From IMG/VR virus record IMGVR_UViG_3300028920_000107, positions 1 to 46,171 of that record: a stretch of 46,171 nucleotides of DNA; one strand, 5' to 3'. The position numbers were made by a program, and so were the translations under genes. The stretch's first letter is position 1. Each line of letters starts with the position of its first letter. The stretch is from a virus. Below the pieces are notes generated by a model. It was given only the letters and a program-made list of their open reading frames with translations, was not told the DNA's origin and did no database searches. This document shows, in pieces, positions 2,054-21,260 of this stretch.

Positions 2054-3085
2054 CTAAGCAGCTTTTCTGACTTCTTGCGTCACCATTTTATTCGTAGCTT
2101 CGTACATTTTCCAGGCAGCATTGAGCTGGCCCGGAGTCATTTTCTTGCCAGCAAAAACCGACAGAGCCTCTTCCTTGCTCGGGTTCTGGAACACCGGCTC
2201 CTCTTTGGGCTGGCTCCATTCCTGCGGCTTCCGGAACACGTCGGTCATAAAGCATAGCCCGCTCGGGTGGTCAATCGGTGCGTAGAGTGCCGGAAATACC
2301 CCTGTGCCCATCCCGTAGGAATCACCGAATGCCCACACGTCGCAAATGTCAGGTATCTTGTGGGCGGCAGACAGGTTCCATTTTACGCCTTTTACCATCG
2401 GGCTGTTTTCGTTCGACTGGATCAAAGCCTCGCGGTAGCTGTTGTTGATCTCTGTCCGGGCCAGGCGCAGGGCGTTGTGGTGGATTGTGCCGTTTCCGGT
2501 TTTCGATTTCTTGATTGCCGTTGTCCAGGATACTCCGGGCGTGATCCTCGGGTCGATCAAAAATGCGCGGATGTCTTTGCTCATATTGACCGCCGACTGG
2601 CCCCTTGCGACGCCGGCCGTAACGATGTTCCGAATGCTGTCCTTTGCGTAGCGATCCATTCGCCAGAGCCGATCCGAGAAGTTGCGGTTGTCGGGCCACA
2701 CCCTCCGGATCACCGAGTCCACGGCAGCAACCGGGATCGCGGCGAACGATTCTTCCCATTCATGGCTGAATCCGACCGACCGGGCGTATTCTGCCGACAC
2801 GTCAGCATATCCCCTGGCCGTGTTTCTGGCTGCGTAATTCATGCCGGCCACAGCGTTGAGCCCCAGGCCTTTCGACATGGCGCTGATCGCTTGGTCGATT
2901 TGGGCCTTCTTCGCTGCATACACCGAATATGACACGTACTTTTCAGGGGTGGATCTCAAAATGGCCTCCAGGTCGTCAGCCGCGGTTTGCAGGACGGCAA
3001 GCGCCCGGCGCTCGGCTACGTCCATGGCCTTTGTCGTATTCGTCCGCAGGCCAAAAAGCCGCTTCTGGTATTCCGACTGGTTCAC
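2054..3085 (-). CDS. MuF-like minor head protein (SPP1 gp7 type)
   Basis: A 343-residue protein starting at GTG 3085, with GGGGAGG eight bases upstream inside the end of the portal gene. The N-terminal ~200 residues are helical; the C-terminal third carries the MuF signature, including an ARTEINNSYREA helix, a HKIPDICDVW strand and a DHPSGLCFMTDV segment with the conserved His/Cys region. Proteins of this family sit inside the procapsid near the portal and help assembly or DNA delivery. Its position directly after the portal gene is the standard order. No extra toxin or enzyme domain is fused to it. Confidence 0.9.
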   Translation of the reverse strand: MNQSEYQKRLFGLRTNTTKAMDVAERRALAVLQTAADDLEAILRSTPEKYVSYSVYAAKKAQIDQAISAMSKGLGLNAVAGMNYAARNTARGYADVSAEYARSVGFSHEWEESFAAIPVAAVDSVIRRVWPDNRNFSDRLWRMDRYAKDSIRNIVTAGVARGQSAVNMSKDIRAFLIDPRITPGVSWTTAIKKSKTGNGTIHHNALRLARTEINNSYREALIQSNENSPMVKGVKWNLSAAHKIPDICDVWAFGDSYGMGTGVFPALYAPIDHPSGLCFMTDVFRKPQEWSQPKEEPVFQNPSKEEALSVFAGKKMTPGQLNAAWKMYEATNKMVTQEVRKAA

Positions 3086-4762
3086 TTACAGGGCCTCCCC
3101 GTTATTGACTGTCCGGTTGAAATCGAATAACTGCCTGTTTGCCTCGGATTCCTGCTCGCGCTGTTCTGCCTGGCGTTTTTTGACCCTTTCCACATCCAGC
3201 GACCAGCCCCGGTCTTTCAGGTATTCCAGGGCCGTTTCGCCGTCAGCGACAGTTTTTAGGATAGCAGCTTCTTCCAGCTCGGCCTTTCCGTCGCTTGGGA
3301 GCAGGTCGCCGAACCGGATAAACAGGTCGTATTTGTTGTCTCCGCTGAAAAGCGGCTTGGCCTCTTCGTCTCCGAAAAGCCCGAACATGGTCTGCACCTG
3401 GTAAAAAAGGTTCGAGTAAGCCTGCTGCCTGCGGTCGCGCATCGGCAGGACCTTGTCCATCAGCGGTTGGAGCAGGATGGCCAGGGCGACGCCGCTTGGG
3501 GCCTCGGAGGGCTTCATCAGTCCGGCGCCGATCTCCGTTATCTCGGACAGGCGGATCAGGTCGTTCCGGTACTTTTCCTCTGTTTTAAGGAGCGCGTCCT
3601 GCATTTTCGAGTTGTCAAGGATCGTCACCTCGCCATCGTCGCCGATATGGTATAGCGTGTTTGGCTGGATCGACACCGGGATCGGTGCCTTTGTGCCGGC
3701 ATCGCGTTTCAACCTGATGCCTTTTCCGGTCGCGATAAGCGTGGCCCCGCCAAGATGCTCGGAGTTGTTGGCAATATCCGTGTCCGTGTTCATCATTGAA
3801 TCGAACAGCGGCAGGAGCCCATGCAGGTTGGATTTTCCGAATGGCTGGCCAGGGGCAGATACGTTCGGGAGCCAAACAGCAGGAACGAAATCAAAGCCGA
3901 GCGCGTCCCAGGAACCGTCCTGCGCTTCGTCCCACAAGTCCATCTCTGGGTCTAAGTCCAGAATCGTCTTTTCGTCCTTTTCCCCGATTTTGAAGTAGGC
4001 CTTTTGGCGGTAGCAGGCGAGCTTGTTTCCGACCACTCTGAGTTCGTAAACGTCACGCCAAACCTTGATTTCTTCCGAATTTGACCATTCCTCCCATGCG
4101 ACCACAAACCGATCCTGGCACAGCACTTCCGGGTTTTCCCACGATGCGTCGTTGCAGTCGTAATACGGAAAACAGAAGCCCGGGTCCTCCACTTTGACCT
4201 TGACGGTCTTGTTGCGGTCATCCCAATATGGGATCAGGACAGCGTCGCCAAGGTAGCTGGTGAGCGTCTCGGCTTCGTCGATTTGCAGGTAGATCATTTG
4301 GTCGGAAAACCAATCGCGCAGGAATTCTTCGCGCATGGTCGTGATGGCTTCGATTTCTGCCAGCTTGGACAGCCGGTCTTCCAGGGCTTTGCGGAGGGCC
4401 TGGTCCTCGGTTTTGGCGAGACGGCTCTCAATTTCACCAACGCTGCCAAACCGCTTCGGGATCGGCATATACACGTCGACCTCGCCACCGAGCACCTTGT
4501 TGCGCATCTTGTCGCACAGCCAGGCCGGGTTTCTCATTTCGATTACGTCGTCATTGTTGCCTGCGTCGCCTGACTCTGCACCCATCCTGAAATCGCGTGA
4601 GTAGCAGTTGTAATACGCCTCTAAAATCTCGTAAGCCTCAAGCCGCCTCAAATGCAAAGAAGGCGCCCAACTGGCGCCGCTCGATACCCCTGCCCGTTTC
4701 AGCGATGTGACGCCCTTTTTGTAATTCAGGATCGGCGCCCACAGATCGTACTGTTTACCCAT
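3086..4762 (-). CDS. portal protein
   Basis: A 558-residue protein, a typical length for siphovirus portals. It follows the large terminase gene and precedes the MuF-type gene. The sequence has the alternating strand/helix layout of SPP1 gp6-like portals, with a long central helix region around SEITEIGAGLMKPSEAPSG and LLQPLMDKVLPM and a charged C-terminal region. As a dodecamer the portal forms the DNA entry channel at one capsid vertex and docks the terminase. The start is ATG 4762, with a GAGGT site six bases upstream. The C-terminal ~40 residues are Gln/Glu/Arg rich. Confidence 0.93.
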   Translation of the reverse strand: MGKQYDLWAPILNYKKGVTSLKRAGVSSGASWAPSLHLRRLEAYEILEAYYNCYSRDFRMGAESGDAGNNDDVIEMRNPAWLCDKMRNKVLGGEVDVYMPIPKRFGSVGEIESRLAKTEDQALRKALEDRLSKLAEIEAITTMREEFLRDWFSDQMIYLQIDEAETLTSYLGDAVLIPYWDDRNKTVKVKVEDPGFCFPYYDCNDASWENPEVLCQDRFVVAWEEWSNSEEIKVWRDVYELRVVGNKLACYRQKAYFKIGEKDEKTILDLDPEMDLWDEAQDGSWDALGFDFVPAVWLPNVSAPGQPFGKSNLHGLLPLFDSMMNTDTDIANNSEHLGGATLIATGKGIRLKRDAGTKAPIPVSIQPNTLYHIGDDGEVTILDNSKMQDALLKTEEKYRNDLIRLSEITEIGAGLMKPSEAPSGVALAILLQPLMDKVLPMRDRRQQAYSNLFYQVQTMFGLFGDEEAKPLFSGDNKYDLFIRFGDLLPSDGKAELEEAAILKTVADGETALEYLKDRGWSLDVERVKKRQAEQREQESEANRQLFDFNRTVNNGEAL

Positions 4763-4842
4763 TGCTACCTCGCGGTTATTCGTTCAATTTCAAAATTCAT
4801 ATACTTTCAAGCGATTGAAAAACGCAGCCATTCGCGAACGTC

Positions 4843-5016
4843 CTATCTTCGACCGAAACGACCCTTGAACTGATGCTTCATTGCTTGCTCGATTTCCCAT
4901 TCTTCGATCCTGCGCTTTTCCCAATCGGTGGGCTTCTGGTCAACGAATTCGTTATCGTCGCGCTTGCCTTTTAACCTTTTATCGCCGGGCAAAGGATGCT
5001 TTTCCGTAAACTTCAA
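4843..5016 (-). CDS. small basic/acidic protein overlapping the terminase end
   Basis: A 57-residue open frame starting at TTG 5016, preceded by a near-perfect GGGAGG five bases upstream inside the large terminase gene, and ending at TAG 4843-4845. It overlaps the terminase by 38 bases in another frame. The protein is highly charged, with a central DWEKRRIEEWEIEQ helix and a basic GRFGRR end. Nothing in it is recognisable. The strong ribosome site, the coding-like composition and its exact fit into the terminase-portal gap support it as a real gene. The remaining ~80 bases before the portal gene hold nothing clear. Confidence 0.65.
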   Translation of the reverse strand: MKFTEKHPLPGDKRLKGKRDDNEFVDQKPTDWEKRRIEEWEIEQAMKHQFKGRFGRR

Positions 5017-6334
5017 TCTCGCCTCCCATCGCTTCGCATTTTATCGTGTAGACCAGGTATCTCGCGCCGTCGATCGAGTGATCGTTCTCCTTGACCGGCA
5101 CGTCGTTTTTGCCCCACTTGTAAAGCCCGGCTTCCTCCTGCATACACGTCGGCCGGCCGTCTTCGACAAGGATCGGGTCTTTCTCGATCAGCCCGTACCA
5201 AAAGCCATTTGTCTCTGACCAGTCGTCATTGAAAATGTAGAATCCCGGAGCGTTGCCGTGGGCCGCATTCAGAAACACTTCTTGAAGGGCCTGTATTCCT
5301 GCAGCAACATCCTTCCTGGCCGCTATGGTGCCGATCCAGTCCTGCTCGAATTGCGCCCGGTTCTCCGCATCGTGGTCAGCGACAATATCCTCGATCTTCT
5401 CGCCTGTCTGCAAACACATCTGCTTGGCAATGGCAATGGCGTCTCTGACCAGCGTGCGTGTCTTGTAGAATTGCCGGTACAGGTAGAAGGTGCCGCTTTT
5501 GGGGTCACGCGCAACCCATCCCATGACCATCGGGTTGTCGTATCCGAAATCCACAAACATATATTTTGGCCACTCATACGGAATCTTGAACGGCTTTATG
5601 ACGTGGATCTTCGGGTCGAAGCTGTCAAGGATCAGACCCTTGAATGCGACCCATTGGCCAAGCACGTACCTGGCGTAATACTGCGTCCCTTCCCATTTGC
5701 GCAGCCGCTCGAAATACGCTTCCGGGTTGTGGATGTTCTCAAAGCTGTCGGTCGAAAAGTAGGCATAATCGTTGTCGCGTTCCGCCTCCGGCTTTTCGGC
5801 GTTCTGGACAAACTTCTCGTACAAAAAGCCTGCGGGTGGGCCAGGGTTGCAGACGCAGACCATGGCCGGCCGCGGGAACACCTTGCCGCGCAACCGGCCT
5901 TGCAGCATGATGAAGTCCGGCTCCTCCAGCTCCGTCGCCTCGTCGATCAGGATCACGTCGAACCGGAGCGAGCCCTTTGCGGCAAAGTTGTCGATCCCGA
6001 AAAAGTGGGCATACGACCCGTTCAGCGACCATATCTCCAGCGTCGATCGTTGGCTTTTCAGGATGTATTCTGGCGGGATTACCTCATCCGTGAACGTCTT
6101 GTATGTAGTGTCGTAAACGCCGACCCGCGTTTTGCGGAAGACGCCGATCTCGATTCCCGGGTAGGCCAACATCAGCTCCCAGGCCAGCTCCCCGATCAGC
6201 CGGGTCTTGCCGGAGCCAAAGCCGCCAGAGTACAGGTAGTTGAGCGCCTGCATCGACTCCAGGGATTTCAGCACCTTCCATTGGGTCGGAAGGTAGGAAA
6301 ACGAGTAGCAGCCATTTACGATGTCGCGACTCAT
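4979..6334 (-). CDS. terL: terminase large subunit
   Basis: A 451-residue packaging motor. The ATPase domain has Walker A SGGFGSGKT (residues 36-44), Walker B VILIDE (127-132) and a CNPG coupling segment near 162. The C-terminal RNase H-like nuclease has its first acidic residue in FVDFGYDNP (D262), a second in IVADHD (D320/D322) and a third in SIDGARY (D422). It cuts concatemeric DNA and pumps it into the prohead. ATG 6334 overlaps the stop of the small subunit (ATGA), so the two are translationally coupled. The packaging mode cannot be read from this sequence alone. Confidence 0.96.
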   Translation of the reverse strand: MSRDIVNGCYSFSYLPTQWKVLKSLESMQALNYLYSGGFGSGKTRLIGELAWELMLAYPGIEIGVFRKTRVGVYDTTYKTFTDEVIPPEYILKSQRSTLEIWSLNGSYAHFFGIDNFAAKGSLRFDVILIDEATELEEPDFIMLQGRLRGKVFPRPAMVCVCNPGPPAGFLYEKFVQNAEKPEAERDNDYAYFSTDSFENIHNPEAYFERLRKWEGTQYYARYVLGQWVAFKGLILDSFDPKIHVIKPFKIPYEWPKYMFVDFGYDNPMVMGWVARDPKSGTFYLYRQFYKTRTLVRDAIAIAKQMCLQTGEKIEDIVADHDAENRAQFEQDWIGTIAARKDVAAGIQALQEVFLNAAHGNAPGFYIFNDDWSETNGFWYGLIEKDPILVEDGRPTCMQEEAGLYKWGKNDVPVKENDHSIDGARYLVYTIKCEAMGGEIEVYGKASFARR

Positions 6335-6903
6335 TTCTCTCTAATCTCTCTGTCCTTTTTGGGGGCTTTGGCTTTTTTTGCGGTTTTTGTGGATTTTGGC
6401 TCGTTTCCATCTCTATCATCTTTTTGCTTTTTGGGCTTTTCCGGCTTTGGCTTGGCCTTCATATTGCTGACGACCGGGATTTGCCTCTGCTCGCTCGGGA
6501 AGTCGATCTTCCAGGCGTTTTTCCATCTGCCCTTGGACCGGTTGGTCAGGTAGTAGAATATCGCCGCGTCCGATGGCTCAACGTGCTTTGTGACCACCTT
6601 TGTCGTAACCTGGGCCTGGCCTGCAGCGTTCAGCCTGCGCTCGGTGTGCTTTTCGTCGTAGCTTCGGCCAAGGCAGCGCGTGAGCAGCGCGTTTTCGACT
6701 TTGGCCAGGTTATCGTCCAGCCCGGATTCTGACCCTTTTTTAAGGTACTGGTCAAACGCGGCCCTATGCCTCTGGAGAGTCTTGGGGCTGATCCCAAGCA
6801 CTTTGGCGATTTCTTTGTGATTTAAGCCCTTTTGTGCTGCCTTCTGGGCGATCTCGAAGTGCTTTTGCGTGGGCTCAAACTTTTTGCCTACCCGTTTCCT
6901 CAT
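6331..6903 (-). CDS. terS: terminase small subunit
   Basis: A 190-residue protein. Residues ~15-50 form a helix-turn-helix (KGLNHKEIAKVLGISPKTLQRHR), as expected for DNA recognition at the packaging site. The middle is helical, for oligomerisation, and the C-terminal ~45 residues are a Lys/Pro-rich disordered tail. The gene overlaps terL by four bases and follows the ParB-like gene with a TAATG overlap. Small terminases bind the packaging site and hand DNA to the large subunit. The basic tail is longer than in many relatives. Confidence 0.88.
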   Translation of the reverse strand: MRKRVGKKFEPTQKHFEIAQKAAQKGLNHKEIAKVLGISPKTLQRHRAAFDQYLKKGSESGLDDNLAKVENALLTRCLGRSYDEKHTERRLNAAGQAQVTTKVVTKHVEPSDAAIFYYLTNRSKGRWKNAWKIDFPSEQRQIPVVSNMKAKPKPEKPKKQKDDRDGNEPKSTKTAKKAKAPKKDREIREK

Positions 6904-7826
6904 TAGGCCCCTGCGACATAGTCAGCGGACAACAGCTCGATGGCTTGCCAGGCATTCTTCTTTTTCAGGACTCCATCGTCGATCATCTTGTCAACCGCTC
7001 TTTTGACTATGGCTGCGGCCTTTGCGGGGATTTTGGACGTGCCGAGAATCGACGAGAGCGGAACCCAGTTGTTGTGTAGGGCCTCACCGTTTTCGTCGAG
7101 ATAGCCGGCCTGTAACGCGCTTTTGTGGGTATTGTAGATGGATAGTAGGAGCATCAGGGAAGTGGCCATATTCTTAATCTGGTATGCAGAGCCCACTTCG
7201 TCAAGTCCATCAACGAATCTGTCGTAATCGGAGAACCGGGCGATCCATGCCTCGTCGCAGTTTTTGGCCGATTCCCGTATGGTTTCGACCATGGCCCGGG
7301 TGGCATCCAGTTCGTCCGGCGTGAAGATAAGGCTCAAAATCTGGTATTTCAGCCCGACCTCGCCAATGCTCTCAATTCTGACCTTTTCGAGCATTTCGAG
7401 CGTTTTGTCGTCCAGCCCGGCGTAGAGCTTCATGTCCACGTCGTCAATTCCCTCATACAACTCTTTCAGGATCGCGTAGTCGTCCTCCCCGGCGATGCTG
7501 TTGTGGCTAAGCTGGATTCCCATCTTGTGGGCCGGGTCGAGCTTTTCGTCCGTGGCCAGGACGTGGACTTTCGTCAACCCTGCGGCAATTGAGGCCTTTA
7601 CCCGGTGGTTTCCGGACACCACTTCGTATTTGCCTTCGTTTGGCCCCTCAAAAATCTTGGCTGCGAACGGAACGGACGTGAGGCAACCGTCGTGCTTAAC
7701 GTTTTCCACAAGCCGCTGGTATTGCTCATGCTTCATGAACCGGGCATTGACTTCGAGCAGAACAAGGTCGTTTGGGTCAACCTCTATGATCTTGGCGGTT
7801 ACTTTTGGGCGTGCTTTTTCTTCCAT
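6903..7826 (-). CDS. ParB/Srx-fold nuclease-like protein
   Basis: A 307-residue protein. Its N-terminal ~100 residues have the ParB fold pattern: an opening strand with DPNDLVLLEVNAR, then YEVVSGNHRVKASIAAG (residues 67-83), which corresponds to the conserved ParB box, then a strand and IQLSHNSIAGEDDYA. The C-terminal two-thirds are helical and unassigned. Such proteins are known in phages as DNA-binding or nucleotide-hydrolysing partners of DNA-modification genes rather than as partition proteins. It starts at ATG 7826, 28 bases inside the preceding modification-like gene, and ends on the start of terS, so these genes are tightly coupled. Confidence 0.82.
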   Translation of the reverse strand: MEEKARPKVTAKIIEVDPNDLVLLEVNARFMKHEQYQRLVENVKHDGCLTSVPFAAKIFEGPNEGKYEVVSGNHRVKASIAAGLTKVHVLATDEKLDPAHKMGIQLSHNSIAGEDDYAILKELYEGIDDVDMKLYAGLDDKTLEMLEKVRIESIGEVGLKYQILSLIFTPDELDATRAMVETIRESAKNCDEAWIARFSDYDRFVDGLDEVGSAYQIKNMATSLMLLLSIYNTHKSALQAGYLDENGEALHNNWVPLSSILGTSKIPAKAAAIVKRAVDKMIDDGVLKKKNAWQAIELLSADYVAGA

Positions 7827-9175
7827 AGCTCCAGAGCCTCCTTCATCGTCATTTGACCAAGCAGGGCGCCATAGTTGATCATGTAGCCCTGGCTATAATA
7901 TCGGTTCACGTCGTCGGAGGCGCCGGCAATCTTCTTCTGGATTTGCGATCTGTCCATCAGCTCGTACACGCCCCGGTATTTCATGGAAACCGGCTTTTTT
8001 GAGAACGCGGTCGTAATCAGGCTGTTCACCCGTTTCTTCGAAACCCGCTCTATCAAAATCCGCGCCTCTTTTGTCAGGGTGGCGTAGAGCACCAGTTTTG
8101 ACAGCCGCTTGTATTTGGACGGGGCAACCGGGAAATCCGACAGTATGTAGACCGCTGGATCTTCGAGTCCCTGCTTTCGGCCAGGGCCTTGTCCGCCGCC
8201 GAGAGCGAAACAGCCGACCATCCGATCATCAACCATGACCGCGAAGCTCGCAAAGGCCTGCCCGGGGCAAATGTTTGCGTTCATGTATTCGGATCGCAGG
8301 GTTGCGAATTCTGCGTAATTTAGCTGCTTTATCCACATTTTGTCGCCGATCTCCTGGTCTTTTGCCAGCCTGGGGATCAGGACGGGGGCGGTCTTTTGGT
8401 TTGGCACTACAACCCGCTTGCCCTTCATCGCGTTCGAATAAATGTAGATCGACACCCCGCGGTTGGTCGTTTTGGCCATTCCGGACAGATATGGCTCGAG
8501 TTGCGGGAACCGGACGTGCAGGCCGACCATCCACTTTTTGCGATCCATCAGCTTTTCCAAAAACTCCAGCTTGCGCGGCTCGTTGAATTCTTCGTATGGT
8601 ACCGCCTGCCAGGTAAACAGCTTCTCCAGCTTGGCGAATTGATTGGCGTAGTCGTTGGCGAAAAACGGCGGGTAGCAGATTACCGGGTCTTCCGGCTTCG
8701 CGCGATCAACCCAATAAAACACGTCCTCCGCGTGGAAGCTGGCGAGCTTCATCTTTACGTTGGCCAGCTTTTCGACTGTCTTTGCGTGCACGTTTTCAAA
8801 CTGGCTCTCGTATTGCTTGACCAGCTTGTCGTAATACGGATTCATTCGCCCAACAGCAAACATCAGCCTGGTGCACAGCATCATGCACGCCACCCGGCCG
8901 GTCGGCGTCTCCATGTATTTCTCCATCCAGGCGAAGTGGGGGTATTCGTGCGAATTCAGCTCCAGCTCGATCGGGTTACCGGCCAACAGGTTGCCGATCA
9001 TGCAACTGTAAATGGTCACGTCGTTGCTGTGGATATTGGGGATTCCTGCTGATTGCAGGACGCGCTCAATCGTGAAATTGCCGGAGCAGCCGACGTAAAC
9101 GTCCTTTTCCTTCCAGTCCTTTACCGTGTCGAGCACGATGGCCTGAACGTCTGCCGGTACCGATCCGTGAAACAT
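7799..9175 (-). CDS. methyltransferase-like / GNAT (Mom-like) fusion, candidate DNA-modification enzyme
   Basis: A 458-residue protein with two apparent domains. Residues 1-200 look like a Rossmann DNA methyltransferase of the D12 kind: YVGCSGNF (27-34) at the SAM-loop position, SNDV (50-53), and VICYPPFF (165-172) in place of the catalytic DPPY, with the aspartate replaced by cysteine. Residues ~280-410 have the layout of GNAT acetyltransferases and recall phage Mu Mom: a strand with FAVMVDDRMVGCFALGG, then LSKLVLYAT, a helix, and a YRGVYEL end strand. The substituted catalytic motif suggests the first domain may bind DNA or SAM without simple methylation. RBS GAGGT precedes ATG 9175. The modification role is inference. 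Confidence 0.7.
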   Translation of the reverse strand: MFHGSVPADVQAIVLDTVKDWKEKDVYVGCSGNFTIERVLQSAGIPNIHSNDVTIYSCMIGNLLAGNPIELELNSHEYPHFAWMEKYMETPTGRVACMMLCTRLMFAVGRMNPYYDKLVKQYESQFENVHAKTVEKLANVKMKLASFHAEDVFYWVDRAKPEDPVICYPPFFANDYANQFAKLEKLFTWQAVPYEEFNEPRKLEFLEKLMDRKKWMVGLHVRFPQLEPYLSGMAKTTNRGVSIYIYSNAMKGKRVVVPNQKTAPVLIPRLAKDQEIGDKMWIKQLNYAEFATLRSEYMNANICPGQAFASFAVMVDDRMVGCFALGGGQGPGRKQGLEDPAVYILSDFPVAPSKYKRLSKLVLYATLTKEARILIERVSKKRVNSLITTAFSKKPVSMKYRGVYELMDRSQIQKKIAGASDDVNRYYSQGYMINYGALLGQMTMKEALELWKKKHAQK

Positions 9176-9353
9176 GCGACCTCGAAAAGTGGAGCGGTGA
9201 CCTGGTACTACCCCAAGTTCTCCCGGCTGGTGGCCGGGCGCATTAATTTCATGCTCTCACCGCGTCAATTTGGCTGGCTTCTGGCTTCTGGCTTCTGGCA
9301 ATTGGTTCGCTACGGGGGCTCCGGAACCTACCCTTTGGCTACTCTCAGCTCCG

Positions 9354-9760: not shown

Positions 9761-10144
9761 TTAAAAAAGGTCGAGCTGGGCTTCCGGCTCTTTTGGCGGC
9801 TCTGGCTTTGGCGCAGGCATCAGTTCGTCGATCTCGATGCCAGCCTCTCGCATCCATTCAGCTACAAGCTGCCGGTGACAGAATTTTCCTGCCGCTTCCC
9901 AACACAAAAGGATCGCATCCTCGCCAACCAGTTCGGCTATTTGTGTCGGGTCGAATTTTGACAGCACGTCCCGGACGTAGACCTCTTTGTACTGTTCAGG
10001 GGTTGCGTCGCTTTTCACCAACTCCCAAGGTGGCGCCAACCGCGCCAGGCTTTTCCCTTTGTACCAATATGGGGCCTTTGCTGCGATTGACACCGCTTTG
10101 GGGTCGGAGCCGTGTTTTGCGAAGTTGGAAGTGTGTAACCTCAT
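9761..10144 (-). CDS. DUF488-like protein
   Basis: A 127-residue protein starting at ATG 10144, which overlaps the stop of the preceding gene (ATGA). The longer frame to 10279 is rejected for that reason. The pattern fits the DUF488 family: an N-terminal strand with HTSNFAKHG, a central YVRDVLSKFD, and the family's hallmark cysteine-bearing strand LLCWE followed by KFCHRQLVAEWM. The C-terminal ~25 residues are proline-rich and end LDLF. The biochemical role of DUF488 is not established. Phage members commonly occur among early genes, as here. Confidence 0.75.
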   Translation of the reverse strand: MRLHTSNFAKHGSDPKAVSIAAKAPYWYKGKSLARLAPPWELVKSDATPEQYKEVYVRDVLSKFDPTQIAELVGEDAILLCWEAAGKFCHRQLVAEWMREAGIEIDELMPAPKPEPPKEPEAQLDLF

Positions 10145-10362
10145 GCCACGGGCTCGATTTTCTTCAACTCGTCGTTGAGCCTTGCGACAGCACGCACCAC
10201 GTAGGTATTCATCGACATTCCGTGCTTTTGCGCCATCTTTTTTGCTGCGTTGTGGATGGCCTTTGGCGTTCTGAGACACACCCCGACTTCGTCTTTTTGT
10301 TTTTTCATGGTATCAATATATATTGTTTTGTCGCTGCTGTCAAGTATTTGATTTTGTTTCAT
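10141..10362 (-). CDS. ribbon-helix-helix DNA-binding protein
   Basis: A 73-residue frame starting at ATG 10362, which overlaps the clamp gene's stop (ATGA). An alternative start at ATG 10308 gives 55 residues and lies six bases after a strong -10 box, so a leaderless shorter form is possible. Residues ~24-65 match Arc/MetJ-type ribbon-helix-helix proteins: a short strand (EVGVCLRTP), helix AIHNAAKKMAQKHG, turn MSMNTYV, helix VRAVARLNDELKK. Such proteins bind operators as dimers. Because a promoter lies within the gene's first codons, self-control is plausible. Confidence 0.72.
   Translation of the reverse strand: MKQNQILDSSDKTIYIDTMKKQKDEVGVCLRTPKAIHNAAKKMAQKHGMSMNTYVVRAVARLNDELKKIEPVA
10315..10343 (-). 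promoter_or_regulatory. promoter P1 (TTGACA-17-TATATT)
   Basis: Minus-strand TTGACA (10338-10343), 17-base spacer, TATATT (10315-10320). The -10 lies in a perfect 12-base palindrome CAATATATATTG and is followed at once by TTGATACC (GTATCA family). It sits inside the ribbon-helix-helix frame, with ATG 10308 at the predicted transcription start. It would serve the ribbon-helix-helix, DUF488-like and coiled-coil genes. Confidence 0.75.
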
Positions 10363-11843
10363 ATCATCCCCATTCTCGATAGAACGTCCTGCTCTTTTTT
10401 AAGGATAGGGCGCTGCTCCAAAACCTGCACGTTGAGCCCCTCCAGATTCTCCGCAAGGTGAAGCATGACAGCGGCTTGCGGAGACTTTTCGCCAGGGGTC
10501 ACGGCAAAGCACGTTTTCACCTTTGACCCATTTACGCCGATCTCGCAGATGGTAAGGTATGTTTCTGCCCCGTTCGCGGCCTGTGGGGGCTGTATGTGGC
10601 TTGTGTTCGCTTTTGCGGCCTTGGTTGGTTGTGGGGTTTGCACTTCTTCGTGTTTCCCCCAATCGCACTCTCCCCGCTGCTCGCTCATAATGCGCAAAGG
10701 CATCAAAAGGGTTTTCGACCAAGGGCCTTGCGTTGTGAATACGACCGGCTCCAGCGCACTCCTTCCGAAACTCAAATCTCCCTGCCGGTTGTCTGTCAGG
10801 ATTTCCCGCAGGTAGTCGCCATTGAAGCCGATTTCAAACATCGGGGTTTCGGCAAAATCGTCTTTGGCCAGGGCAATATTGTCTCTCCATTCCCCGCGTC
10901 CACCGCATTCTGTGCACCTGGCCCGGTATAGCTGCGCTGCCGTATTGTATTCCGCTTTGAGCTGGTGGGCACAATACAGCGAAGCATTTCTCGCTGTCGT
11001 GATCGCCTTCGGCATGAAGGTGCCGGGCGCTTTCACCTTCCACCATTTTTCGATGTCAGAAGATGCGCAATAAAGCCAGTTTTGCCTTAAAATGACCTGC
11101 CTCGTTTTTTTGCTCTGGTAGACCGGTTTCAGAACATCCAGGCACTTTATCAGGCCGCTCCGCGTTTCCTCGCTGATGTAGGCCGGGTTGCCGTTTTTGG
11201 GGATCACATTCATGTAGTTCGGGTACGGCCCTTCGATCAGCTTTACTATCAGCCGCCAGTTCTGCCCTACGAATTGCATGTGCCGGTGGTGCGTCGTCTT
11301 TTTGCCCGGCTCGCCTTCCTCGTCAACGAATATCTGCGCACTCGCTATTTCGTTCTGAACAAGGGCCAACAGCTTTGCAGCTCTGATCGGCAGAATGAAT
11401 CCTCTGGTGAACCCTTTCCATTCAACCATTCTCAGCCTGTGCCCGTCTGTCGCCACCGCGTAGCCGCGTTCCGCGTCAAAGTAAATCCCGTTGAGAGTCA
11501 ATCGGGTATCGTCATAGCTCGCATACTTGGCCAGCGTGTTTAGGTCGATCCCGTCGAACACGTATTTGGATACCGGGATTTCACCCTTGTTGGGTGTCGG
11601 CAGGCTTGGGAATTCGTCGACGTCCACATTCTTTGTCTTGGCCATCTCCAGAGAATTTGTCTTGCGGTACAAGGCAGCATCGATGGCGCCAGTAAAAGTG
11701 GTCCCGGTCGAATAGACAAAATACTGATCCAGATTTGTCGCGCGAAGAACGCCTGTCTCGACCATGGCCTGCTTCAAAATCATCAGCCTTGAATTGTTTG
11801 GGACTACCATGCCCAACACCCTCATTGCGGTTTTCTGGTCCAT
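10359..11843 (-). CDS. DNA sliding clamp (DnaN/beta-like)
   Basis: A 494-residue protein; start ATG 11843 overlaps the stop of the preceding gene (TGATG). The middle shows clamp features: a strand with LNGIYFDAERGYAVATDGHRL (residues ~117-137), whose ATDGHR motif is diagnostic of bacterial beta clamps, then FILPIRAAKLL, and a later domain with MFEIGFNGDYLREIL. It is longer than the usual ~370 residues; an insert with a C-x2-C-G-G-x-G knuckle and a Thr/Pro/Gln-rich linker precede the C-terminus. No phage polymerase or clamp loader was found, so it probably works with host replication proteins. Confidence 0.85.
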   Translation of the reverse strand: MDQKTAMRVLGMVVPNNSRLMILKQAMVETGVLRATNLDQYFVYSTGTTFTGAIDAALYRKTNSLEMAKTKNVDVDEFPSLPTPNKGEIPVSKYVFDGIDLNTLAKYASYDDTRLTLNGIYFDAERGYAVATDGHRLRMVEWKGFTRGFILPIRAAKLLALVQNEIASAQIFVDEEGEPGKKTTHHRHMQFVGQNWRLIVKLIEGPYPNYMNVIPKNGNPAYISEETRSGLIKCLDVLKPVYQSKKTRQVILRQNWLYCASSDIEKWWKVKAPGTFMPKAITTARNASLYCAHQLKAEYNTAAQLYRARCTECGGRGEWRDNIALAKDDFAETPMFEIGFNGDYLREILTDNRQGDLSFGRSALEPVVFTTQGPWSKTLLMPLRIMSEQRGECDWGKHEEVQTPQPTKAAKANTSHIQPPQAANGAETYLTICEIGVNGSKVKTCFAVTPGEKSPQAAVMLHLAENLEGLNVQVLEQRPILKKEQDVLSRMGMI

Positions 11844-12346
11844 CAGCTTAGCTCCTTCATCAGTTTGAGAACGTCCAGCTCGACCATGAAATCTTCTTCC
11901 ATCGCCCACTTTGCGACGTGCTTCCGCTTAAATTCTTGGTAACACTTGAGCGCCATTTGCTTACCCATGAAGGTCAGCAGGATGCCGAGCGCCAGTTGTG
12001 CCGGGCCGCTTCCGCTGTACCCCCAGGCAAACCCGTCCGGCGAATGGTTGAAAACTTTCTGGCTTTCGGCGGGGTCGAGCTCCTTGCAATTCACGAAAAC
12101 CCGCCTGCTGCCAGCTTCCCCGCGGATCAGCAGCTTTACCGGCCCTTCTTTCTTTTCTTCTTCGTAATTGTGGAGAGCCATGCGAAACACGGCGGCGCCG
12201 TTAATTTCCATATAGTCCGCATAGTGGGCCACGTCACAAATAAGGTCGATCAGGTCGGTTTCCAGCTCGTCGCTACCGCCGATTCTGCTGTCGTTGTAGG
12301 CCTTAAGCGCAATAATAACAGGCAAAAACTCTTGTGTCTTAGCCAT
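11843..12346 (-). CDS. DUF6166-like protein
   Basis: A 167-residue protein starting at ATG 12346 (TGATG overlap with the RadC-like gene). The central phrase PDGFAWGYSGSGPAQLALGILL is the hallmark of DUF6166-type proteins, preceded by a strand region (LLIRGEAGSRRVFVNC) and followed by a helix ending in QEFKRKHVAKW. The N-terminal ~60 residues form an extra helical segment that smaller family members lack. Function is unknown. It lies in an early block between a RadC/JAMM protein and the sliding clamp, so a DNA-metabolism link is possible. Confidence 0.75.
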   Translation of the reverse strand: MAKTQEFLPVIIALKAYNDSRIGGSDELETDLIDLICDVAHYADYMEINGAAVFRMALHNYEEEKKEGPVKLLIRGEAGSRRVFVNCKELDPAESQKVFNHSPDGFAWGYSGSGPAQLALGILLTFMGKQMALKCYQEFKRKHVAKWAMEEDFMVELDVLKLMKELS

Positions 12347-17455: not shown

Positions 17456-17845
17456 TCACGCAAACACCGGCTTGAAAAACTTTAACTGACCCCGGCAAGG
17501 CATAGGCTCTGGCAGCGCTCGGTATCCCTGCAGCACGAATCCGAACGGCCCAAAGAACCAAGGGCTAAACGATTCTGTCACGCAGTCCACGATCTCAATT
17601 GATCCGATTATGGCGCCGACCGGCAAACCTTCTGGTGCTGCCGGAATATCGGGCATTCTCTCTCTTAGCTCTTGGAAGTTGACGTATGCGGCAGGGTCAT
17701 TCGTTTTTGACACGTGTAGGCCGACTCTCCCACGGAACCCGGTTTCCCAATCCCGGTTTTCGATGTCCTTCCCGCCTTCCGCGATCGCCCAGGCCCACGG
17801 CTGTCTGACGCTCAAACAATATGTGAAGTCAAAATTCTTGCTCAT
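17456..17845 (-). CDS. ASCH-domain protein
   Basis: A 129-residue protein with the ASCH pattern at its N-terminus: CLSVRQPWAWAIAEGGKDIENRDW (residues 10-33), then RGRVGLHVSK. The later strand GAIIGSIEIVDCV also fits. ASCH domains resemble RNA-binding PUA folds and some members act on modified nucleosides. Start ATG 17845 overlaps the preceding stop (ATGA). The ORF carries an extra C-terminal extension after the core strands. Function in the phage is unknown. Confidence 0.85.
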   Translation of the reverse strand: MSKNFDFTYCLSVRQPWAWAIAEGGKDIENRDWETGFRGRVGLHVSKTNDPAAYVNFQELRERMPDIPAAPEGLPVGAIIGSIEIVDCVTESFSPWFFGPFGFVLQGYRALPEPMPCRGQLKFFKPVFA

Positions 17846-18360
17846 TTCTTCCACAACCTCCCAACTCCAGGCCATTCATCAAACAGCTCCGTTTCCTTAA
17901 CTTGGTCAGATACGCTATACGAAAACTCTAGAAAAACAACACGCAGATACGGGTGCCTGTTGTGGTGTAGGTCGTCCATGACCAAAACGCCACCACTACC
18001 AAGCAGCCTCCAGCACAGCCGTAAGTCTGCCTTGGCTCCCCAATACGAGTGGTCGCCATCAACCAGGGCCATGTCAAACGGCCCGGTCAGAAGCGGAAGC
18101 ACTTCTTCGCTGTTCCCGGAGTGGATCGCCGTCACCTCATCGACTCCGAGCATTTCAATTGTTTGCCTGATTCTTTCCCTGTCGTTTGCTCCGGTGCCTC
18201 CAGAGTGCAGGCCCCAATTGTCAACCAGCTCGATCTTTTCTGGAACATGGCCAAGCAAAACCGAGAGAAGCGAGTGCCCTTCACGGACACCCACTTCCAG
18301 GTAGCTTTTCGGTTTCACCTTCTTAGCCGTATCCATCAGAACACGGTATAGTTGGTGCAT
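17842..18360 (-). CDS. class I SAM-dependent methyltransferase (Methyltransf_24-like)
   Basis: A 172-residue protein starting at ATG 18360, eight bases after GGGGAGG; the much longer frame to 18675 is rejected. It has motif I YLEVGVREGHS (residues 20-30), an acidic loop ELVDNWG, the VDGDHSYWGAKADL segment and GSGGVLVMDDLHHN, the standard layout of Methyltransf_24 enzymes that act on small molecules or sugars rather than DNA. It could supply a methyl group to a glycan, matching the fused methyltransferase near the capsid gene. The substrate is unknown. Confidence 0.85.
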   Translation of the reverse strand: MHQLYRVLMDTAKKVKPKSYLEVGVREGHSLLSVLLGHVPEKIELVDNWGLHSGGTGANDRERIRQTIEMLGVDEVTAIHSGNSEEVLPLLTGPFDMALVDGDHSYWGAKADLRLCWRLLGSGGVLVMDDLHHNRHPYLRVVFLEFSYSVSDQVKETELFDEWPGVGRLWKK

Positions 18361-18518
18361 TACCACGACCTCCCCTCTGCCATGGCCTTCTTCCAGCTTC
18401 GCGGCTTTTTCATCCTGTCGCGGCGAAACGCTTCCGGCTTTAGCTCCCAGGGGGTGTGGCCTTTCTTTTTTTCCTCCGGCACCAATACCGGAAGGTTTAG
18501 GATGTGGCCCAAATTCAT
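18360..18518 (-). CDS. small basic protein
   Basis: A 52-residue frame starting at ATG 18518, with an ATGA overlap with the previous stop, and ending TAATG onto the methyltransferase start, so it fits exactly between its neighbours. The N-terminal part is hydrophobic (NLGHILNLPVLVPEE), followed by a basic tail with PWELKPEAFRRDRMKKPRSW. Not recognised. The stop/start overlaps at both ends are the main evidence. Confidence 0.68.
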   Translation of the reverse strand: MNLGHILNLPVLVPEEKKKGHTPWELKPEAFRRDRMKKPRSWKKAMAEGRSW

Positions 18519-18871
18519 TCTGCGGCCTTTTCTTCGCCTTCCGGACTGTCCGCTCCTGCCGCTTCCTGTGCGTCAGCATCTTTTGCGTCCTGGTTGGCTT
18601 CGGGCTTCGACTCCGGCTGCTGTTCGACAGCTTCGGCTTTTGGGTTGGGAACATTGTCAGGATGCCCCATTCCACGCGCCCACACGATGAATGCCGGGAT
18701 CGGGTCGCCAGGCATTGTCATCATGTTGATCGAAATGATGTCACTTTCCGAATGGCCGTGGCCGACAAGAAGTCTGTCCACGTTTTGCGCAATCGTGTCG
18801 AAATTGATCGGAACTTTGCCGTCAATCGCGATCGTTTTGGGCGGGCTTGGTTTGAATACGTATCCCCTCAT
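18515..18871 (-). CDS. hypothetical early protein with disordered tail
   Basis: A 118-residue protein starting at ATG 18871 (ATGA overlap; AAGGAG eight bases upstream). The first ~75 residues look folded (RGYVFKPSPPKTIAIDG, then NVDRLLVGHGHSESDIISI and PAFIVWARG); the last ~40 are Glu/Ala/Gln-rich and disordered. Unknown function. The longer frame to 19207 runs through the preceding gene and is a shadow. Confidence 0.65.
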   Translation of the reverse strand: MRGYVFKPSPPKTIAIDGKVPINFDTIAQNVDRLLVGHGHSESDIISINMMTMPGDPIPAFIVWARGMGHPDNVPNPKAEAVEQQPESKPEANQDAKDADAQEAAGADSPEGEEKAAE

Positions 18872-19359
18872 AGGGTCTTCTCCTTCCCCTGCTTCGCAGG
18901 TTTTTTGGTTATACCCGATCTCCGCAACGCGGAGACCATCATCAGAATCTCTGATCTTTTGCTTGACTTGAACGGCGGGCAACCCCACGCGTATTGCTTG
19001 TGCATTTCCGGGCCGACGACGACCTCTATTTTCTTTTTCTTTCCGTGGCACCATAGCAGCCCCCACTTCGATTCGGCCACTTCTTCCGGTTGGATCATGC
19101 CTCTCGGACACAGGTAAAACCTCCACTCGCCGAGCCCGTCGCGAACATCCAGCCGTCGCCAGCATTTCTGCTTGTCCTTGATAAAATCTCGTCTTGACGC
19201 CTTGCATTCAACCAAGACAGAATGCGATCCGCTCCAGCCGATTGCGTCAGGGGTTTCGCCTGCCGCTGTAACCATTTCCTCAAAAACGATGGAGCAGCCA
19301 ATCGACCGCAGCCAGCTTCCGGCCTTTTTTACGAGCGCATCATGCAGGAGCGACGGCAT
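18868..19359 (-). CDS. PD-(D/E)XK-like nuclease/DNA-repair protein
   Basis: A 163-residue protein with the restriction-fold core T-P37-D38-AIGW followed by VLVE51-C-K53-ASRRDF, then YLCPRGMI and WGLLWC. This matches small phage proteins related to MmcB-type repair factors. ATG 19359 is preferred over 19368 because GGGGAGG directly abuts the earlier ATG but has a 9-base spacing to the later one. It overlaps the radical SAM gene by 20 bases. DNA is the likely substrate. Confidence 0.75.
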   Translation of the reverse strand: MPSLLHDALVKKAGSWLRSIGCSIVFEEMVTAAGETPDAIGWSGSHSVLVECKASRRDFIKDKQKCWRRLDVRDGLGEWRFYLCPRGMIQPEEVAESKWGLLWCHGKKKKIEVVVGPEMHKQYAWGCPPFKSSKRSEILMMVSALRRSGITKKPAKQGKEKTL

Positions 19360-20107
19360 TGTTTCCATCCTCCCCGGCTTTCACCAAAAGCTCTTTTTTG
19401 AGATAATACCGTTCTGGCGGAAGCTCTTTTCTAATGTCGTCCACAAACGAGCGCCAGTCCACCCCGTCAATGGCCGCTTTGTTGTAATTCAGCGGCCCGA
19501 TTTTCCACAAATTAACGTGTGATTTTATGGTTTTGATTATGGTAATCGCGGCAGCGGGATCTATTACCGGCTCCAGGCTCACAAAGGTATCAATCCCGGC
19601 GTTATGGGCCTTAATTATCGTTGCCATTCTTTCAGCCGGTTGAGCAGCCAACGGCTCGCATTCAGCCGCTTTGTCTGAGTCTCCATATACCAATGTGACC
19701 CCGAGACTCCACCCATTCATCATGAATAGCGGAAGATCGCCTAAAACCGCTTTCCCTCCTTTTGTCAGGACGGCAACCTTCATGCCGTGTTCTGCCAATA
19801 CCTCCAAAGCCTCCCTGGTGATCTTGTGAAGGTCTGGCCGGTTGTTCGGGTACGGGTCACACGTGAAGCACATCAGAATTTTTCGGTCCTCGCCTGCATC
19901 CTTCAGCTTCGCGCAATCCTTCCGTATCCGCTCAATGATGTTCTTTCGCGGGGTGACGGAATCGTGAAACCTTTTCCTGTCAATATGTCTGGCGAGTGGC
20001 GCATAACAGTAGGTACATCCGTGAGGGCACCCATCAAACAAATTCAGCGCCAGCGGAGAATACTCCAGAGCCTTCCCTTTTGGCTCGTAGATAACGTCTG
20101 TCTTCAT
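19340..20107 (-). CDS. radical SAM protein (SplB-like)
   Basis: A 255-residue protein starting at ATG 20107 (ATGA overlap; AAGGAG nine bases upstream). Residues 26-36 hold the radical SAM cluster motif C27-x3-C31-x2-C34 in GCPHGCTYCYAP, preceded by GKALEYSPLALNLFDG as in the spore-photoproduct-lyase-like group. CFTCDPYPN, AVLTKGG and FVSLEPVIDP follow in the expected order. Such enzymes bind a 4Fe-4S cluster and cleave SAM to make a radical. DNA photoproduct repair or nucleic-acid modification is possible; the substrate cannot be told. Confidence 0.85.
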   Translation of the reverse strand: MKTDVIYEPKGKALEYSPLALNLFDGCPHGCTYCYAPLARHIDRKRFHDSVTPRKNIIERIRKDCAKLKDAGEDRKILMCFTCDPYPNNRPDLHKITREALEVLAEHGMKVAVLTKGGKAVLGDLPLFMMNGWSLGVTLVYGDSDKAAECEPLAAQPAERMATIIKAHNAGIDTFVSLEPVIDPAAAITIIKTIKSHVNLWKIGPLNYNKAAIDGVDWRSFVDDIRKELPPERYYLKKELLVKAGEDGNNAVAPA

Positions 20108-20469
20108 GGCTTCTTGCTCCTTACGTGTTTGACCAGATTGAAAACCCCGCGTCCGCGACCCTGCTTCCTGTCGATCCACTTCCCGGTACCAGGCCAGAAA
20201 TCAATCAGGCCATTCGGCCCTGTCACGATCAAATGCCTGCCGGAATTGTGCGACGTGAACTGAACCCTTTTTGATCTTAGCAGCTTTGTCGAGTTCGTGC
20301 GGTTGCCTGTGTTTTTTTCCGGCAGCTCTAAAACGTATCTGCCTGCGTCCGCGTGATCCTCGCCTTTACATGAGCGGCACCGCCTTGGATACCCGTCTCC
20401 ATCTCCGATAAAAACACCACACGTTTCGCATAGCGTCCCTTCGAGCATCATTTCTGCAACATCACCCAT
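20104..20469 (-). CDS. zinc-finger early protein
   Basis: A 121-residue protein starting at ATG 20469 (TGATG overlap with the previous stop; AGGAGG upstream). The N-terminus holds a compact zinc site, C-E-T-C ... C-R-S-C, in the pattern LEGTLCETCGVFIGDGDGYP that I associate with small phage proteins. The C-terminal part is basic (SKRVQFTSHNSGRH then KWIDRKQGRGRG). DNA or RNA binding is likely; nothing more specific can be said. Confidence 0.7.
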   Translation of the reverse strand: MGDVAEMMLEGTLCETCGVFIGDGDGYPRRCRSCKGEDHADAGRYVLELPEKNTGNRTNSTKLLRSKRVQFTSHNSGRHLIVTGPNGLIDFWPGTGKWIDRKQGRGRGVFNLVKHVRSKKP

Positions 20470-21055: not shown

Positions 21056-21260
21056 CCTTTTTTCCTTTTTGGGCAACAGGGGCGGGATTCGAACCCGCAG
21101 TCTCCGGTGAATGACTCCGGCGTTTGACCATTAAACTGCCCTGCGCCACGTCAATAATTTTACCGATTAGCTGCTCCAGCTCGACTCGGCCCATGGTTTT
21201 CAGGCAGTCCCTTATCGCGCTTTCAAGGAACAACTTGTCCATGTAGCTTATTCGAGCCAT
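21048..21260 (-). CDS. dubious frame running through the tRNA-like gene
   Basis: A 70-codon frame from ATG 21260. The first ~38 residues (SYMDKLFLESAIRDCLKTMG and ELEQLIGKIIDVAQ) are coding-like and helical. The rest translates the tRNA, giving the familiar artefact phrase ETAGSNPAPV. Either a short protein gene truly overlaps the tRNA, or the coding part is decayed and the frame stays open by chance. No good ribosome site is seen. Confidence 0.35.
   Translation of the reverse strand: MARISYMDKLFLESAIRDCLKTMGRVELEQLIGKIIDVAQGSLMVKRRSHSPETAGSNPAPVAQKGKKDA
21074..21145 (-). tRNA. tRNA-like gene, anticodon CAU
   Basis: The 72 bases fold as a cloverleaf on the minus strand: D-arm GTTT/AAAC with GG in the loop, a four-pair anticodon stem CCGG/CCGG, a five-pair T-stem GCGGG/CCCGC with loop TTCGAAT, and acceptor CGCAGGG against CCCTGTT. 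The centred anticodon is CAU. Flaws are a C-T mismatch at the first acceptor pair, a G-T second pair, an A-A pair closing the anticodon stem, C at position 8, and no encoded CCA (GCCC follows). It may be a real, divergent phage tRNA or a decaying one. Confidence 0.6.

Follow-up and report, generated by a model that had tools for sequence, protein, structure and literature searches.

FemXAB, LFTR and related enzymes are aminoacyl-tRNA-dependent transferases that have a GNAT-like catalytic fold without a coenzyme A (CoA) loop; their acceptor is peptidoglycan or protein, and staphylococcal FemXAB uses a dedicated non-translational tRNA-Gly. In the thymine hypermodification of phage DNA, amino acids or polyamines are attached to 5-hydroxymethyluracil, with no tRNA donor. 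Phage Mu Mom has a GNAT-like fold in which no canonical CoA loop is visible, and the title of Swinton 1983, cited in PMC3874153, gives the product of Mu Mom as alpha-N-(deoxyribofuranosylpurin-6-yl)glycinamide; glycyl-CoA has been suggested as a possible donor for Mom (PMC7824862). Fusions of ParB-fold proteins with methyltransferase and acetyltransferase domains have also been described (PMC12704722). Here we analyze a stretch of viral DNA of 46,171 nucleotides (nt), IMG/VR record IMGVR_UViG_3300028920_000107, positions 1 to 46,171 (the window), in which a gene for a protein joining a Dam-like domain to a GNAT-like domain (DAM-GNAT) is accompanied by a cryptic tRNA-Gly-like gene and a gene for a ParB-like protein. 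We consider, with a probability of about 0.72, that this locus encodes an aminoacyl-tRNA-dependent modification of phage DNA, which is assisted by ParB and probably serves anti-restriction. The parts of the module in the window are as follows.

9190..9263, minus strand: cryptic tRNA-Gly-like gene, anticodon ACC (cloverleaf scan, shuffles, covariance model and minimum-energy fold)
7799..9175, minus strand: DAM-GNAT fusion protein gene, 458 amino acids, phrog_7858 (open reading frame call, Pfam, PHROG and AlphaFold2 model)
8369..9172, minus strand: Dam-like Rossmann methylase domain, PF22555 DAM-like-phage1, residues 2-269 (Pfam E 3.5e-84; Foldseek 4rtm)
7811..8344, minus strand: GNAT-like domain, PF22559 GNAT-phage-like, residues 278-455 (Pfam E 7e-47; Foldseek GNATs including Mom 8bv8)
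6903..7826, minus strand: ParB-like protein gene, 307 amino acids (phrog_7405, ParB_N-like), with a 28-nt overlap with the DAM-GNAT gene

The tRNA-Gly-like gene is located between the upstream gene and the DAM-GNAT gene and ends 14 nt before the ATG of the latter. Its sequence (GCGGTGA-GA-GCAT-GAAATTA-ATGC-G-CCCGG-CCACCAG-CCGGG-AGAA-CTTGG-GGTAGTA-CCAGG-TCACCGC-T-CCA) has the acceptor stem GCGGTGA/TCACCGC, U73, an encoded CCA and the anticodon ACC in a 7-nt anticodon loop. The identity elements by which glycyl-tRNA synthetase (GlyRS) recognizes bacterial tRNA-Gly are U73, G1:C72, C2:G71, G3:C70, C35 and C36, and all of them are carried by this cloverleaf. Features of an elongator tRNA are missing, as the T-loop (GGTAGTA) has no TTC and the D-loop (GAAATTA) has no GG. 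The element was the top cloverleaf of the 46 kb on both strands (score 56 with 0 mismatches), a score that was reached in 0/2000 dinucleotide shuffles of the 400 nt upstream (maximum 43). It scored 53.7 bits (E 6.8e-10) with a covariance model, R1, built from the tRNAs of 23 relatives with the window excluded, and minimum-energy folding gives the cloverleaf (z -3.7). ARAGORN did not call it, nor was it among the Rfam matches at E<=10, which were below threshold and due to chance (AdoCbl-II, for example). The tRNA in the window is real. Elsewhere in the window, at 21141..21078 on the minus strand, there is a weaker tRNA-like element, which scored 24.3 bits with R1 and 45 in the cloverleaf scan (2 mismatches) and was not called by ARAGORN; its T-loop is TTCGAAT, its anticodon loop is CAT-like, and it is possibly a degenerate tRNA-Met-like gene.

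Similar tRNA genes accompany the relatives of the enzyme. Among the 127 loci of the first subfamily with enough upstream sequence, 80 have a tRNA-Gly-like gene on the same strand within 1 kb upstream, at a median distance of 89 nt, and in the remaining tRNA-bearing loci the tRNA lies farther up or downstream. ARAGORN alone called 64 tRNA-Gly genes and five with an abnormal anticodon loop on the same strand in this 1 kb, no other isotype, and no tRNA on the opposite strand; the cloverleaf and R1 searches found extra cryptic tRNAs at ARAGORN-negative loci, Gordonia phages among these. When 23 of the tRNAs were aligned without the window, 97.9% of the cells were paired and double changes were present in 16 of the 21 pairs (112 double-change cells versus 26.6 in shuffled data, 0/500). 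The pairs at 1-3/70-72 (G1C2G3) were invariant in this alignment and C35C36 was kept. The upstream tRNAs include ACC anticodons and anticodon loops of 6 or 8 nt; N34 varies (T in 38, A in 11 and C in 10 distinct tRNAs with a 7-nt loop), as does the length of the anticodon loop, and a 7-nt TTC T-loop is missing from 24 of 67 tRNAs. This maintenance of the glycine identity elements, together with the drift at N34 and in the T-loop, is the pattern expected if glycylation is needed and decoding and binding to EF-Tu are not. The possibility that the tRNA marks an integration (att) site was rejected, because the tRNA is on the same strand in all cases of the first subfamily and next to the same gene, its anticodon loops are degenerate and it occurs in genetic elements that are unrelated to one another. 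Three loci (L168, at 4560-4630, 4637-4704 and 4830-4899, together with L178 and L021) have two or three tandem tRNA-Gly-like elements before a single DAM-GNAT gene.

A divergent sister subfamily, which includes proteins of Faecalibacterium phage FP_Brigit and Microbacterium phage ValentiniPuff, was extended to 65 viral loci by a profile scan. The upstream tRNA is Lys(CTT) in the Brigit clade and Arg (TCG, CCG, TCT) in basal lineages, and in one clade it is a tRNA-Gly of CCGG type whose T-loops are highly unusual. R1 detected the tRNA in 57 of 63 sister loci, and two more came from ARAGORN or the cloverleaf scan. When 93 enzymes were placed on a tree, the isotype label needed 24 changes, compared with 51 after shuffling (0/200), and the CCGG-Gly type forms a single, fully supported enzyme clade nested among the Lys types. 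The isotype thus follows the enzyme clade, which is not expected of a tRNA that is present by chance or merely for translation. On comparative genomic grounds, the tRNA is a partner of the enzyme, and sequence comparison shows what is expected of an aminoacyl-tRNA-dependent transferase, namely a cognate tRNA that is conserved beside the enzyme and keeps the identity elements for its synthetase. In 9 of the 65 sister loci a gene for S-adenosylmethionine (AdoMet) synthetase is found near the module; in L013 (1515-2693) and other sister loci it is close upstream of the tRNA-Lys/DAM-GNAT/ParB module.

A first-pass annotation, made from the letters of the window, had read the open reading frame at 9175..7799 (minus strand) as a two-domain protein with a D12-like methyltransferase fold and a GNAT-like domain of Mom-like layout. 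The matches to PF22555 (282.8 bits) and PF22559 (159.7 bits), both above the curated cut-off of 27, bore out the two domains. The AlphaFold2 model, for which 56 sequences were the input, was confident in both halves, with a predicted local distance difference test score (pLDDT) of 92.1 and a predicted template modelling score (pTM) of 0.84. Foldseek comparison of the model with PDB recovered GNATs, phage Mu Mom (8bv8, E 1.8e-4) among them, as well as Escherichia coli Dam (4rtm, E 9.7e-4), so that the two-fold reading proved right. The likeness to Mom holds for the fold and does not extend to membership of the Mom family at the sequence level: the window protein gave no match at E<=1 to the Mom profile PF25680, which Mu Mom matches at 2.4e-75. 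In other searches, the protein had no match in NCBIfam, the family had only chance matches among PDB sequences, and a viral scan with the single protein found no matches as it is too divergent; the relatives were then recovered by profile scans. Residues 286-408 of the window protein also match phrog_2443, a group of amidoligases, which may point to a fusion of amidoligase and GNAT elsewhere that could have a tRNA partnership as well.

The relatives come from Gordonia and Mycobacterium phages and from plasmids or prophages of Streptomyces, Streptomonospora, Peribacillus and Salmonella, and 118 contigs, viral or from genomes, hold others. Downstream of DAM-GNAT, a ParB gene is present in 132/132 loci of the first set and in 61/62 loci of the sister subfamily (directly downstream), and because of these counts the linkage to ParB is far above chance. 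In the window, the ParB-like protein matches phrog_7405 (8e-65) and the ParB-like phrog_620 (4e-12); its Pfam ParB_N score, 19.5 bits, is under the cut-off of 26.3 bits. On a plasmid of Streptomyces sp. NBC_01201 (L008, 6001-7353), the DAM-GNAT gene has two in-frame stops and is annotated as three hypothetical proteins, and the upstream tRNA-Gly is retained.

The motifs of the enzyme were compared among 56 aligned members of the first subfamily, and the positions in question are as follows.

9062..9091, minus strand: motif I, GCSGNFTIER, putative AdoMet-binding loop, nearly invariant in the alignment
8663..8674, minus strand: motif IV position, YPPF, residues 168-171, with D/N replaced by F/Y in 56/56
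8093..8113, minus strand: YKRLSKL, residues 355-361, at the site of the CoA loop [QR]xxGx[GA] of CoA-binding GNATs (alignment)

The window protein shares with D12-class adenine methylases such as Dam the fold, motif I and D52 at the AdoMet-ribose position, and D52 is nearly invariant; it differs from Dam in having an aromatic residue for the D/N of motif IV, the GNAT fusion and the tRNA partner. The Rossmann methyltransferase fold and motif I of such enzymes are therefore present, and in place of motif IV, [DNS]PP[YFW], the first subfamily has [FY]PP. Residue 168, at the D/N position, is F in 47 and Y in 9 members, with Y168 in the window protein, and the sister subfamily has NPPT, that is, N at this position. 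The first-pass annotation had proposed a cysteine in place of the catalytic aspartate; this did not hold, as the alignment places C167, the cysteine of CYPPFF, one residue upstream of the D/N position. In the GNAT half, the residues D347, T388, S397, K399, Y400 and R401 are invariant, and the canonical CoA pyrophosphate loop [QR]xxGx[GA] was found in 0/56 members, a YKRLSKL-like sequence standing instead.

A tRNA partner recurs next to genes of Mom type. The Mom loci were gathered with two Mom sets and include 80 ParB-linked Mom-type loci, ParB being adjacent in 66. R1 found a tRNA-Gly-like element in 42 of the 80, and 39 of these 42 start between -40 and +60 nt from the 3' end of mom, a zone that makes up 0.95% of the bases searched; the elements adjacent to mom read GCG...CGC-T, mostly with xCC anticodons. 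In other Mom loci, a mom-adjacent R1 match was found in 10 of 65. Microbacterium phage Antuna (L199) and Arthrobacter phage Wyborn (L201) have ParB, a Mom-like gene and tRNA-Gly adjoining, and the tRNA-Gly of Wyborn (3044-3115) has no annotation and shares sequence with the 3' end of the Mom-like open reading frame. Mom relatives that are linked to ParB with an adjacent tRNA-Gly thus resemble the DAM-GNAT loci; unlike the window protein, Mom has no Dam-like domain, and most Mom genes have no adjacent tRNA.

From these observations we infer the role of the tRNA as donor, the DNA target, the base, the product and the purpose, and propose a three-part module in which a dedicated tRNA and ParB work with the Dam-like/GNAT-like fusion enzyme. 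The tRNA-Gly of the phage, with its identity elements kept and otherwise drifted from ribosomal use, would be charged by the GlyRS of the host, and the GNAT-like half would accept glycine from the charged tRNA, not an acyl group carried by CoA. Phage DNA would be bound by the Dam-like half, which would flip a base, most likely adenine, to which glycine would be transferred, and ParB would serve as a loader or as a DNA clamp that depends on nucleotides. We would expect either an N-glycyl base or, as its rearranged form, the isomer N6-carbamoylmethyl-adenine, which is the known glycinamide nucleoside of Mu; N6-glycyl-adenine and N6-carbamoylmethyl-adenine are isomers, and by our own chemical reasoning a Smiles-type rearrangement could connect them. 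In the sister clades, lysine or arginine would be used instead of glycine. The purpose would most likely be the protection of phage DNA from restriction. Phage thymine hypermodification is comparable in that amino-acid-derived groups are placed on bases of phage DNA, with different enzymes. The first-pass annotation had proposed a module for DNA modification in which ParB accompanies a protein with an altered methylase domain and a Mom-like GNAT domain, and fold, family and synteny support this proposal; the tRNA, which was absent from that annotation, shifts the likely chemistry from acyl-CoA to an amino acid delivered by aminoacyl-tRNA.

Several points weigh against this proposal. The glycyl transfer and the DNA target are what we infer from sequences. 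Motif I is strongly kept and motif IV is not, so that our model may fail to account for a role of AdoMet. The cloverleaf scan admitted only sequences that begin with GC and have U73 and an anticodon loop containing CC, and the frequencies of these features are therefore partly selected, the tRNA list from ARAGORN being the unselected check; R1 was built from Gly-type tRNAs, yet it scores other tRNAs too. The GNAT half and Mom cannot be convincingly aligned by sequence (hhalign of DAM-GNAT with eight Moms was weak, 54% over 27 columns, and with Mu Mom alone gave 0.6%), and many Mom loci, phage Mu included, have no adjacent tRNA. A Streptomyces-type clade and some other loci have DAM-GNAT with no detectable tRNA in the fetched stretch, and such clades may use the Gly-tRNA of the host. 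The tRNA-less Streptomyces-type loci, which have ParB, are L049, L050-L058, L060, L061, L066, L084, L086 and L130, and their contigs are often about 20 kb.

The best-surviving alternative, which we nevertheless consider unlikely, is an aminoacyl-tRNA-dependent transferase with an acceptor other than DNA, either a protein (terminase, capsid, ParB or a host protein) or another molecule. The known GNAT-like aminoacyl-tRNA transferases of the Fem/LFTR kind act on proteins or peptidoglycan, and DNA is a deduced substrate here. However, every member has a Dam-like domain and ParB is the partner, which sets the window system apart from FemXAB and LFTR, and it has no Pfam match to those families; the tRNA pairing also recurs next to Mom, a known DNA modifier.

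Slightly less probable again is a Mom-like enzyme with an acyl-CoA donor such as glycyl-CoA, in which case the tRNA would serve ordinary translation or be there by chance. The GNAT fold, with Mom 8bv8 and CoA-dependent GNATs as the top Foldseek matches, would be consistent with such an enzyme, as would the naming of glycyl-CoA as a possible Mom donor in PMC7824862. The ACC anticodons, the anticodon loops of 6 or 8 nt and the non-TTC T-loops, however, are unsuited to decoding; the isotype follows the enzyme clade, the tRNA recurs beside Mom genes, and none of the 56 members has the CoA loop motif. Glycyl-tRNA fits the product of Mu and the genomic evidence better than glycyl-CoA does.

That the tRNA is a substrate or decoy, with the GNAT half acetylating aminoacyl-tRNA like the TacT/AtaT toxins in a takeover or toxin system, seems very improbable. 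PMC9177977 and PMC9241777 describe GNAT toxins that acetylate aminoacyl-tRNAs, including glycyl-tRNA, whereas the enzyme here has no canonical CoA loop motif, is constantly fused to a Dam-like domain and has ParB as its partner, and the tRNA accompanies Mom as well. It is scarcely credible that the enzyme is simply a Dam-like adenine methyltransferase that serves anti-restriction and has the GNAT part as an accessory, since, despite the PF22555 Dam-like fold, the conserved motif I and D52 and the AdoMet synthetase gene in 9 of 65 sister loci, this reading does not accord with the loss of the D/N of motif IV in 56/56 members or the invariant residues of the GNAT half, and it leaves the tRNA unexplained.

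Other genes around the module in the window are as follows.

6331..6903, minus strand: terminase small subunit gene terS (phrog_309), a neighbour and not an obligatory part
4979..6334, minus strand: terminase large subunit gene terL (PF04466), a neighbour
9761..10279, minus strand: DUF488-like gene (phrog_2450), a recurrent upstream neighbour in 24/132 loci

As the first-pass annotation had noted, the ParB-like gene overlaps the DAM-GNAT gene and terS follows, with terL after it. Its suggestion that the DNA is marked shortly before packaging is the weaker part of its reading, as TerL was detected in only 71 of the 132 loci of the first set (RadC in 7), and in Mycobacterium phage Jeon the DAM-GNAT and ParB pair is far from the terminase. 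Adjacency to the terminase as the key link was ruled out by Jeon, and the conserved unit is thus the tRNA, DAM-GNAT and ParB, not the packaging genes. Elsewhere in the window, a radical SAM protein (19340-20179, minus strand) and a Methyltransf_24-like protein (17842-18675, minus strand) are possible further modification genes, and a DNA polymerase III beta-clamp-like protein of 516 amino acids (10359-11909, minus strand) has a long extra C-terminal part.

The odds modestly favor a wider role, in which charged tRNA would be the general donor for a class of DNA modification, with Dam-GNAT and Mom-family enzymes attaching glycine, or lysine and arginine in the sister clades, to bases. This wider role would tie the machinery of the genetic code directly to DNA modification and would identify the donor behind the momylation of Mu. 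Searches of the open-access papers in PMC, preprints not included, brought up no case of DNA being modified from an aminoacyl-tRNA; for Mom, such a donor may already have been reported outside that literature, for example with PDB 8BV8. If our proposal is correct, it would represent a new DNA chemistry and would offer an answer to the origin of the glycinamide of Mu Mom. Lysyl and arginyl DNA bases would be predicted in nature. The proposal would also explain the cryptic, non-decoding tRNAs in these phages, as members of a class of functional phage tRNAs that escapes tRNA finders.

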